From the NCBI RefSeq assembly GCF_002968285.2, contig NZ_CP134400.1, positions 4,836,001 through 4,900,000 on the forward strand: a DNA stretch of 64,000 nucleotides. The letters are read 5' to 3'. Shown piece after piece: positions 58,876 to 62,218 of the stretch. Under the pieces are notes generated by a model. It was not told where the DNA came from and made no database searches. It saw only the letters and a list, made by a program, of their open reading frames with translations. This stretch comes from Mycobacterium sp. ITM-2016-00318 (lineage in GTDB: Bacteria > Actinomycetota > Actinomycetes > Mycobacteriales > Mycobacteriaceae). The position numbers and the translations under genes were made by a program. How positions within the stretch are numbered: position 1 is the first letter of the stretch; the number at the start of each line of letters is the position of its first letter.

Positions 58876-59193
58876 ATGCCCGTGGTGAAGATCAACGCAA
58901 TCGAGGTCCCGCCGGACGCCGGCCCAGAGCTGGAGAAGCGGTTCGCGCACCGTGCGCACGCCGTCGACAATCAACCCGGCTTCCTGGGCTTCCAGCTGCT
59001 GAGGCCGGTCAAGGGAGAAGACCGCTACTTCGTCGTCACGCAATGGGAGTCTGAAGAAGCGTTCCAGGCGTGGGCCAGCGGTCCTGCCGTGGAGGCGCAT
59101 GCCGGACAGCGAGCCAATCCCGTGGCCACGGGAGCTTCGCTGCTGGAGTTCGAGGTTGTGCTGGACGTTGCGGGGACTGACGCCAAGGCCTGA
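58876..59193 (+). CDS. mhuD: MhuD, heme-degrading monooxygenase
   Basis: A 105-residue ferredoxin-like dimeric barrel protein that follows M. tuberculosis MhuD (Rv3592, 105 residues) closely: PVVKINAIEV at the start (including Asn7), FLGFQLLRP, WESEEAFQAW (Trp66), and HAGQRANPV with the heme-ligand His75. It opens heme to mycobilin and releases iron. The length and ligand positions confirm the ATG at 58876. The lpqF start lies inside its last codons. Confidence 0.94.
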   Translation: MPVVKINAIEVPPDAGPELEKRFAHRAHAVDNQPGFLGFQLLRPVKGEDRYFVVTQWESEEAFQAWASGPAVEAHAGQRANPVATGASLLEFEVVLDVAGTDAKA

Positions 59194-60541
59194 GGCGAGC
59201 AGGGCGCGCCGCTGGGCGACCTCGATAGCGGTCGTCGCCACGCTGGTCGCGGCCCTCGCTTGCGGATGCGCTGACGCCGGACCGACCGGACCTGCCGGGG
59301 CCGCGCAGAGCATTCACATCGACACCAACACGCCGCAGGGTCTGCGGGCCAAGCAGATCATGGACATGCTCAACTCCGATTGGCCCATCGGGCCCAACGG
59401 AATCCGCACGTTGGCCGACCCCGAGATCATGGACGACGTCGGCGTCACGATGGACAAGATCTGGTGGGACCGACCGTTCACGCTGACGGATCTGGATATC
59501 GGGGCCGGCCACGCGACACTGCACACCCTGACGTCGTATGCGGTACCGCAGACCATCGAGTTGCGGACCAACGAGGCCGGACTGGTCGACCGCTTCAAGG
59601 TGTCGCTGGTGCCGCCCGTGATCGAGTCGTGGAACGACATCGACGCCGAGATCGCCAAGACCGGGGCACGTTACTCATACCAGGTGTCGAAGGTCGACGG
59701 CGGTAAGTGCTCGCGAGTCGCCGGCACCAATACCGACCTGTCCCTTCCATTGGCGTCGATCTTCAAACTCTATGTGCTGCTTGCGGTCTCGGAGGCAGTG
59801 AAGGCTGGCACCGTCAGCTGGGACGACAAGCTGCTCGTGACAAAGGAGGGCAAGCTCGTCGGGGCGGCAGGTCTCGACGAGATACCGGACGGCAGCACGG
59901 TGTCGGTGCGCACCGCCGCGCAGCAGATGATCTCGGCCAGCGACAACATGGCGACAGACCTGTTGATTCAACGCCTCGGCCCAGGCGCCGTCGAGCGTGC
60001 ACTCGTCACCGCCGGGCACCACGATCCTGGTGGCATGACGCCGTTCCCGACCACACACGAGCTGTTCTCCATCGGGTGGGGCAGGCCGAACCTTCGTGAC
60101 CAGTGGGAGAAGGACTCCTCTTCGTCGGTGGGACGCGCGAGATTGTTCAAGCAGACGAATTCCCGTCCCTACGACCCTGATCCGGAACGCACGCACACGC
60201 CTGCCTCAGACATCGGCGCCGAATGGTACGGCTCGGCGGACGACATCTGCCGCGTGCACGCGGCACTTCAGAAGTCGGCGGTCGGTGCGGGCGCACCGGT
60301 CAAGCAGATCCTGTCGGCGATCCCCGGCATCGATCTGGACCGCGCGAAGTGGCCGTACATCGGCGCCAAGGGCGGAAATCTGCCGGGCGACCTGACGTTC
60401 AGCTGGTACGCCGTCAACCGCGCCGGGCAACCGTATGTCGTCAGCTTCCAGTTGAATTGGCCGAAGTTCCGCAGCCAGACCGCGGCGGGGTGGCTGCTGT
60501 CGATCGTGCACCAGACGTTCGACCTGATCCCCGCGACCTAG
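59168..60541 (+). CDS. lpqF: LpqF, lipoprotein with serine beta-lactamase fold
   Basis: About 457 residues. A basic N-terminus leads into a hydrophobic signal (ATSIAVVATLVAALAC, possible lipid-modified Cys near residue 31). The class A beta-lactamase-like domain has SxxK (SIFK in PLASIFKLYVLL), SDN (SASDNMATDLL), and a KGG in IGAKGGNLPG in place of KTG. Homologous to Rv3593. The start is uncertain; TTG at 59168 is the first usable codon and overlaps mhuD by 26 bases. The TAG stop uses TA (60539-60540) of an IS630 target site and the first base of the element, so the reading frame is intact. Confidence 0.83.
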   Translation: MRGLTPRPEASRARRWATSIAVVATLVAALACGCADAGPTGPAGAAQSIHIDTNTPQGLRAKQIMDMLNSDWPIGPNGIRTLADPEIMDDVGVTMDKIWWDRPFTLTDLDIGAGHATLHTLTSYAVPQTIELRTNEAGLVDRFKVSLVPPVIESWNDIDAEIAKTGARYSYQVSKVDGGKCSRVAGTNTDLSLPLASIFKLYVLLAVSEAVKAGTVSWDDKLLVTKEGKLVGAAGLDEIPDGSTVSVRTAAQQMISASDNMATDLLIQRLGPGAVERALVTAGHHDPGGMTPFPTTHELFSIGWGRPNLRDQWEKDSSSSVGRARLFKQTNSRPYDPDPERTHTPASDIGAEWYGSADDICRVHAALQKSAVGAGAPVKQILSAIPGIDLDRAKWPYIGAKGGNLPGDLTFSWYAVNRAGQPYVVSFQLNWPKFRSQTAAGWLLSIVHQTFDLIPAT

Positions 60542-61623
60542 TGTCCTGAGTCGTTAATTCGTTGGCAGTAGTTGCCGATGCTGGCGAGGATTTGGTCGGC
60601 GGTTTTGGTCCAGACGTAGGGCCGGGGGTTGTCGTTCCAGGTGTCGATCCAAGCCCTGATGTCGGTGTTGAGTTGGCGCACCGAGGTGTGGGTGCCGCGA
60701 CGCAGTTTCTTGGTGGTCAGTTCGGCGAACCACCGTTCGACCAGGTTGAGCCATGACGAGCTGGTCGGGGTGAAGTGCAGGACGAACCGCGGGTGCGCCA
60801 ACAGCCAGCGCTGGACTGCCGGCGTCTTGTGGGTGGAGGCGTTGTCGAGCACCAGGTGCACGTCCAGGTCGGTGGATACGGAGGCGTCGATGGTCTTCAA
60901 GAAGGCCAGGAACTCGGTGGCCCGGTGGCGTGTGTGCAGCGCACCGATCACCTTTCCGGTGCTGAGATCCAGTGCGGCATAGAGGCTTGAGGTGCCGTGG
61001 CGGACGTAGTCGTGGCTGGCTCGCGCGGGGATTCCGGGCAACATCGGAAACACCGGCGCAGTGCGATTGAGCGCCTGAATCTGGGTCTTCTCATCAACAC
61101 ACAACACCATGGCCCGTTCCGGTGGGTTCAGATACAGTCCGACGACGTCGCGGACCTTGGCCACGAACAACGGATCCTTGGACAGCTTCCAGGAATCCTG
61201 TTTATGCGGTGCCAGGCCGAATGCCCGCCACACCCGCGACACCATCGACTGCGACAGTCCCAGGTGCTCGGCCATCGACCGGGTCGACCACTGAGTGGCG
61301 TTTCGGGGGGCCGTCTCCAGCGTGGCAGTGATCAGCTCCTCGATGCGGGCATCCTCCACGACGCGGGGCCGGCCCGGCCGCGGTTCATCGAGCAAGCCGT
61401 CGAGGCGATCAACGGCGAACCGGTTGCGCCATTTGGTCACCATCCCGCGGGTCACGCCCAGCTCCCGCGAGATCTGCGTATTACTCGAATCACCTTCACA
61501 GGCAAGAACTATGCGAGAACGCAGGGCCAGCGCCTGAGCGCTCTTAGGTCGACGCGCCCAGGCCTGCAACTGCTCACGCTCATCGTCGCTCAACACAACG
61601 CTCATCGCTACTGGACTCGGCAT
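60538..61623 (-). CDS. IS630-family DDE transposase
   Basis: A 361-residue transposase. The N-terminal HTH domain (residues about 20-70, LRSRIVLACEGDSSNTQISR...LGVTRGMVTKWRNRF) is followed by a second HTH near residue 115. The DDE catalytic domain has Asp in LCVDEKTQIQ (about residue 180), Asp in LVLDNASTHKT (about residue 265) and Glu in WLNLVERWFAEL (about residue 300). The reading frame runs through the inverted repeat, and its stop TAG is made of the duplicated host TA plus one host base (60538-60540). ATG at 61605 is an alternative start. Confidence 0.92.
   Translation of the reverse strand: MPSPVAMSVVLSDDEREQLQAWARRPKSAQALALRSRIVLACEGDSSNTQISRELGVTRGMVTKWRNRFAVDRLDGLLDEPRPGRPRVVEDARIEELITATLETAPRNATQWSTRSMAEHLGLSQSMVSRVWRAFGLAPHKQDSWKLSKDPLFVAKVRDVVGLYLNPPERAMVLCVDEKTQIQALNRTAPVFPMLPGIPARASHDYVRHGTSSLYAALDLSTGKVIGALHTRHRATEFLAFLKTIDASVSTDLDVHLVLDNASTHKTPAVQRWLLAHPRFVLHFTPTSSSWLNLVERWFAELTTKKLRRGTHTSVRQLNTDIRAWIDTWNDNPRPYVWTKTADQILASIGNYCQRINDSGH
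60541..60561. repeat. IS630 inverted repeat, left
   Basis: GTGTCCTGAGTCGTTAAT plus three further bases; pairs with 61647-61667 with one mismatch at position 19. The outermost base is G. Confidence 0.92.
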
Positions 61624-61646
61624 GATCCCAGTCTAGCGGCTGAGCG

Positions 61647-61667
61647 CGGATTAACGACTCAGGACAC
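61647..61667. repeat. IS630 inverted repeat, right
   Basis: Reverse complement of the left repeat with one mismatch; the outermost base is C. Followed by the duplicated TA at 61668-61669. Confidence 0.92.
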
Positions 61668-62218
61668 TAGTCCGTGCAGCGCAGATTCCATGCGTGACCG
61701 CGAAAGTGCATGACGGTGCGGCTCACCGGCGCGATATCGATGCGCCAGAACGACTTCGCGGGCGCGTCGAGTGCCACGAGAATCGCGGCGCGGATGACCG
61801 CCGGGTGAGTGACCGCAACCAGTCGGCTGCGACGCGTCGTCACGGTGTCCATCCAGTCGCGGACGCGGTCGATCAGTTCGACGACTGATTCCCCGCCGTG
61901 CGGCGCCCTGCTCGGGTCAGTCAGCCAGATGGCTAGGTCGGCGGGCCGTACGCCGCCGAGCACGTCGCCACGCCATCGGCCGCAGTCGAGGTCGGCCAGC
62001 CGGTGGTCGATGCCCGCCTGCAGGCCAAGAAGATCGGCGGTCTGTCTGGTGCGCTTTTCCGGACCGCAGAATGCGCCGTCGGTGATGCCCAGTTCGATCG
62101 AGGCGTCGACCTGGCGGTGGCCGACCGAGTTGAGCGGTTCATCGGTGGGGAATCGTCCGGCCGACATCGCATCGGTCATGGCGTGCGATACAAGTGTCAG
62201 CCGGACGACTTCACTCAT
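61667..62218 (-). CDS. Histidine phosphatase superfamily protein (SHA variant)
   Basis: A 183-residue phosphoglycerate-mutase-fold protein. The N-terminal catalytic motif is VSHAMTDAM, so the His is kept but the usual preceding Arg of RHG is Ser. Other elements are GPEKRTRQTADLL (Arg-rich phosphate site), a central ADLDCGRWRG, and late VTHPAVIRAAI (second His). The Ser-for-Arg change may alter activity. It lies ten bases after cbtA on the same strand; proteins of this kind often accompany cobalt/cobalamin genes. Its stop TAG includes the last base of the IS630 element, without changing the protein. Confidence 0.8.
   Translation of the reverse strand: MSEVVRLTLVSHAMTDAMSAGRFPTDEPLNSVGHRQVDASIELGITDGAFCGPEKRTRQTADLLGLQAGIDHRLADLDCGRWRGDVLGGVRPADLAIWLTDPSRAPHGGESVVELIDRVRDWMDTVTTRRSRLVAVTHPAVIRAAILVALDAPAKSFWRIDIAPVSRTVMHFRGHAWNLRCTD

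Follow-up and report, generated by a model that had tools for sequence, protein, structure and literature searches.

The stretch of DNA analysed here (the window) comprises 64,000 nucleotides of the genome of Mycobacterium sp. ITM-2016-00318. It contains an IS630-family insertion sequence that lies between an lpqF-like gene and a histidine phosphatase gene, the two host genes converging on it (Table 1). The name lpqF is that of the initial annotation, which was made from the sequence alone; the Pfam domains of the protein are ORF_12_N and Beta-lactamase2. The transposase of the element matches the IS630-family profile NF033545 with 268.3 bits (cut-off 100) and the DDE domain PF13358 (DDE_3) with 73 bits (cut-off 28.6). 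Terminal inverted repeats are present; the two arms, with CTAG counted in, are 24 nucleotides long and 96% complementary. The element also has an internal CTAG at 61633-61636, in the stretch that separates its end from the start of the transposase; this is a possible target for self-insertion.

Table 1. Coordinates of the insertion sequence, its junctions and the neighboring genes in the window
Feature	Position	Strand	Remarks
Longest ORF of the lpqF-like gene (domains ORF_12_N, Beta-lactamase2)	59099..60541	+	start at 59168 by our gene caller
CTAG at the left junction (C from the host, TA from the target, G from the element)	60538..60541		stops of lpqF-like gene and transposase
Transposase gene, 361 aa, IS630 family, DDE_3, HTH	60538..61623	-	lacks a stop codon within the element
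IS630-family insertion sequence, 1127 bp, outer bases G...C	60541..61667	- (transposase strand)	from sequence, profile matches and copy comparison
Terminal inverted repeat, transposase 3' end	60541..60561		
Terminal inverted repeat, transposase 5' end	61647..61667		
CTAG at the right junction (C from the element, TA from the target, G from the host)	61667..61670		stop of phosphatase gene
Histidine phosphatase gene, 183 aa, His_Phos_1	61667..62218	-	scores under the NCBIfam cut-off for alpha-ribazole phosphatase

The letters at the two junctions are C60538, TA at 60539-60540, the element from G60541 to C61667, TA at 61668-61669, and G61670. The initial annotation had claimed that the outer G and C of the element regenerate CTAG at both junctions, and the bases are exactly as it described. 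It had also placed the element inside the TAG stops of both host genes, with both stops rebuilt, and the junction coordinates of the two ORFs bear this out. The TAG of the lpqF-like ORF (60539-60541, plus strand) takes its G from the element, and the G in the TAG of the phosphatase ORF (61669-61667, minus strand) is complementary to the C with which the element ends. To these two host stops we add a third, that of the transposase itself. Its frame is open through the terminal element base 60541, and its TAG (60540-60538, minus strand) is target sequence: its first two letters are the target TA, and its G is complementary to host C60538. Since both host stops and the transposase stop use junction bases, three stop codons, not two, depend on the junctions. 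The host proteins, which had been held to be unchanged by the insertion, are equal in length to those of the three nearest relatives (408 and 183 amino acids, counted from the query).

The genome is a single contig of 5,458,722 bp in which we found five copies of the element (own1, the window copy, to own5), whose differences from the window copy number 0, 0, 1, 1 and 2. All five have the junctions CTA-G...C-TAG with TA on both sides, each within different flanks, so the boundaries of the element do not depend on a single copy. The end motif (at most three mismatches, whole genome) occurs only at the 10 ends of these five copies, and there are thus no solo ends or miniature copies at that threshold. 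All copies fall within 4.18-5.31 Mb, i.e., 1.13 Mb of the 5.46-Mb chromosome (p = 0.009 for random placement), as if the element hopped locally or favored this region. Each of the five occupies the TAG stop of a host gene, gene ends here being those of our simple codon-usage gene caller and not of a curated annotation. In own1, own4 and own5 (3/5), the CTAG ends two convergent genes. Own3 is at one stop of a convergent pair, which brings the copies between convergent genes to four of five, and own2 is at the stop of one gene in a tandem pair.

Is this arrangement shared by related elements? Out of 570 confirmed stretches from a search for encoded relatives we took the best 80, which are mostly actinobacterial and 60-84% identical. 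Within the genus, related DNA was found in 28 of 248 genomes, this genome included, when two candidates were scored per genome. The best match elsewhere was 80% identical, so that near-identical copies were seen only in this genome among the 248 genomes with two candidates each. The 80 encoded relatives, 28 genus loci and five own copies make 113 loci, whose ends we sought by TA flanks and inverted repeats, without using CTAG. We kept 87 of them; 13 had no candidate ends, nine had weak ends and four repeated the flanks of another.

The initial annotation had suggested looking among other copies for an enrichment in CTAG, and the result is clear: 84 of the 87 elements have the junction CTA...TAG. 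Two others (L051, L083) have CTA...TAA, and one (L032), perhaps nested, has TTA...TAA. A purine follows the right-hand TA in all 87. The outer bases are G...C in 85, the exceptions being L032 and L081; the latter has A...G within a CTA...TAG site, which counts against the explanation that we favor below. In 83 of 87 elements the transposase stop is the first triplet beyond the element (81 TAG, two TAA), the exceptions being L032, L047, L084 and L207. A target motif wider than CTAG was considered and rejected: 72 sites compared with 248 other CTAGs have no further base preference (lowest of six p-values 0.11; the comparison omits 12 of the 84 sites with CTAG, for which a contig end is no more than 12 bases away).

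Other members of the IS630 family give a less uniform picture. We collected 24 loci from 41 related genomes, eight of which belong to the same group as our element (own copies included), and nine of the 24 gave no clear ends. Seven further loci (in G012, G021 and G030) have CTAG junctions, and in five of these the ORF ends just outside the element. For the three G012 copies the reading of the ORF end is insecure, the ORFs chosen by the script being on opposite element strands. In the other two CTAG-junction loci the ORF ends inside the element, 305 bases from the end in L369 and 25 bases from it in L367 (G021). L367 is in a CTAG site and yet has its stop within the element, so the borrowing of a stop seems not to be universal in the IS630 family.

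The initial annotation had the element enter at the central TA of CTAG. This is the simplest reading of the junctions, but CTAG sites alone cannot separate it from an alternative in which the duplicated target is the whole 4-bp CTAG. The element would then be TGTCC...GGACA (1125 bp), and the stops would be plain copies of the target rather than rebuilt. The 84 CTAG sites among the 87 look identical whether 2 bp (TA, with G...C at the element ends) or 4 bp were duplicated, and the transposon TnRErm46 has been described with an NCTAGN repeat (PMC6794481). Only L051 and L083 discriminate. In both, the left side reads CTAG and the right side CTAA, which is what a TA duplication with fixed G...C in a CTAA target predicts, whereas under the 4-bp reading both would need a mutation. 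Moreover, ISY100, of the same family as IS630, is reported to have duplicated TA in 34 of 39 products in vitro (PMC2170065). We regard a 4-bp duplication as improbable, and we infer a duplication of TA at the window copy.

If the element entered a CTAG, relatives lacking it might retain the uninterrupted site, as the initial annotation had expected of close relatives. For the window junction we found 42 relatives with a phosphatase homologue (one of the match lists being the best 30 of 97), and in 37 of them an lpqF homologue adjoins it. The two genes end in a 4-base overlap in 11 of the 37: six share CTAG (L090, L161, L164, L167, L173, L174), three TTAG, one CTAA and one TTAA. The uninterrupted shared CTAG is thus present in only 6/37, all more distant than the nearest three relatives. 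In place of CTAG, the latter (G156, G045 and G183; lpqF 86-88% identical) show either TGA and CTA directly adjoining or TGA and TCA separated by one base, which counts against the explanation that we favor. For own5, an uninterrupted shared CTAG is directly observed in G156, G045 and G011, three of the ten relatives with both genes. At own4, a further point against, the shared CTAG was absent in 29 relatives reached via the right gene and in 29 via the left gene, and three loci (L112, L311, L315) have a TTAG common to both genes. At own3, the right-gene stop is a CTAG without the element in two of three relatives, with a left flank unlike ours across the 25 bases shown. At own2, CTAG is at the host stop without the element in six of 29.

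The junction between lpqF and the phosphatase gene has other peculiarities. In G137 (L171) it carries an insert of approximately 146 nucleotides with inverted ends of GTGTCG type offset by one base; the predicted fold has -65.9 kcal/mol, a value without a shuffle control. The empty shared CTAG of L173 is that of G158. We considered the L171 insert as support for TA duplication and rejected it, as the one-base offset favors neither reading. In seven relatives (L162, L170, L178, L092, L163, L160, L088) the gap between the two stops is 26 to 1,338 bases wide, which suggests that inserts of various kinds may have landed here repeatedly.

We are also interested in whether the placement at gene ends exceeds what the supply of CTAG would give. 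As background we used the CTAGs outside the element in 60 evenly spaced 20-kb stretches of this genome (1.2 Mb, 66% GC). They contain 449 CTAGs, compared to 1,033 expected from trinucleotides. By the same gene caller, 11 are at shared stops, 93 at single stops (seven of which fall within another gene), 155 within genes and 190 between genes. That is, 104/449 end at least one gene and 11/449 are common to two convergent stops. Against all CTAGs, the p-value of finding 5/5 own copies at stops is 7e-4, and that of at least 3/5 at shared stops is 1.4e-4; against CTAGs outside genes the values are 0.004 and 5e-4. For the four copies that were new to the initial annotation, 4/4 at stops has p = 0.003 (0.013 outside genes) and at least 2/4 at shared stops has p = 0.003 (0.008 outside genes). 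These tests were picked only after the copies had been seen, and they concern five copies.

Outside this genome, the gene context could be compared in a similar way. With the same gene caller we scored the 62 of 87 elements that have at least 900 bp of flank on each side and intact CTAG junctions. Shared stops account for five of them, single stops for 16, intergenic positions for 36, and positions within a gene or at its edge for five. When the own copies are set aside, two shared and 14 single stops remain among 57. The 158 background CTAGs in the same flanks divide into two shared, 17 single, 91 between and 48 inside genes. Stop sites are enriched (16/57 versus 19/158, p = 0.011), and insertions within genes or at their edges are depleted (5/57 versus 48/158, p = 0.001). 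When the inside-gene insertions are left out, the excess at stops is 16/52 versus 19/110 (p = 0.07). Shared stops alone, with all sites counted, give 2/57 versus 2/158 (p = 0.29). There is no orientation bias at the single-stop sites (9 versus 7). These counts fit a targeting of CTAG followed by the loss of harmful insertions, and the modest gene-end bias elsewhere is, for the most part, consistent with the loss of insertions inside genes. The enrichment at gene ends that the initial annotation had suggested looking for is thus a strong excess in this genome and a modest one in others.

It is likely that the gene-end bias comes only from the supply of CTAG and survival, an account that concerns the bias alone and is compatible with the insertion at a shared CTAG. 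It agrees with the p-value of 0.07 obtained in other genomes without inside-gene insertions, and with the lack of any sequence preference past CTAG. It accommodates less well the enrichment in those genomes against all CTAGs (p = 0.011) and the five copies of this genome. Outside genes, their placement at stops and at shared stops (p = 0.004 and 5e-4) exceeds, for shared stops, the prediction from supply and survival.

Could the element prefer convergent intergenic regions beyond their sequence, e.g., for their supercoiling or terminators, and so favor shared stops? Such a preference would suit the three own copies at shared stops and the four between convergent genes, as well as the other small insert at the lpqF/phosphatase junction in G137, with its empty counterpart in G158. 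The shared stops outside this genome (p = 0.29) argue against it, and we consider it rather unlikely. A further reading, that this clade of IS630 elements is specialized for gene ends, would combine the lost transposase stop, the constant G...C ends and the CTAG target into a safe landing, with an active preference for shared stops beyond supply and selection. We regard this as unlikely. At a shared stop the transposase is in every case downstream of one host gene and codirectional with it, and this arrangement could also feed it transcription. In the window, the transposase is downstream of the phosphatase gene, in the same direction and 43 nucleotides past its stop.

Our preferred explanation, which we hold to be very probable, is that an IS630-family element inserted at the TA of the CTAG in which the TAG stops of two convergent genes overlapped, rebuilt both stops and borrowed its own, and that surviving copies gather at gene ends. 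An element of this family (Tc1/mariner superfamily), with a near-absolute CTAG target, would enter the central TA of a CTAG belonging to two genes. Duplication of TA together with the fixed outer G and C would recreate CTAG at both junctions and, with it, the stop of each host gene. The rebuilding of stops would thus follow from the known CTAG preference of such elements and the end letters of this one. The transposase frame, being open to the last base of the element, is closed by target letters (TA and the purine after it). CTAGs are few in this GC-rich genome, and most of them end genes or fall between them; insertions inside genes would be lost, and the survivors would therefore collect at gene ends without harm to the host.

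How much of this has been seen in known systems? A preference of IS630 for TA within 5'-CTAG-3' is the subject of a 1991 paper by Tenzen and Ohtsubo, whose title is in the reference list of PMC2170065. Our element shares with IS630 of Shigella sonnei and the IS630/Tc1-mariner family the transposase family, the insertion at TA and the CTAG preference (84/87 here). It differs from them, within the open-licence literature searched, in the borrowed transposase stop and the rebuilt host stops; among the matches listed for IS630 or insertion sequence with CTAG, no title or abstract describes stop-borrowing across IS630 elements. ISPsy32, an IS630-family element of Pseudomonas syringae pv. actinidiae, is also reported to target CTAG (PMC8027508). 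According to that report, it lies upstream of a gene and disturbs its expression, rather than lying in stop codons. A close parallel is TnRErm46/ISRe46 of Rhodococcus equi. Its reported target is CTAG, and the junction TAG serves as the stop of its transposase and of some of the genes hit, e.g., parB, which are left intact (PMC6794481); the window element works in a like manner. TnRErm46 belongs to the IS481 transposase family and is a cargo-carrying transposon with the NCTAGN repeat noted above; in contrast, the window transposase scores 57.8 bits against the IS481 profile NF033577, below the cut-off of 224, and falls outside that family. The shared stops of convergent genes are a feature here and go unmentioned in the passages on TnRErm46.

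The ingredients are therefore known singly: the CTAG preference from IS630 and stop rebuilding from TnRErm46. What is new is the systematic borrowing of a stop across a clade, together with the gene-end placement in this genome (5/5, which rests on five copies). The element offers an example of how mobile DNA can enter a gene-dense genome harmlessly, the target word being a gene-end word that is rebuilt by the element's end bases. It is also a warning for annotation, as transposase genes of this kind lack an inherent stop codon. Finally, it provides a countable case for the question of whether landing at gene ends reflects targeting or survival.
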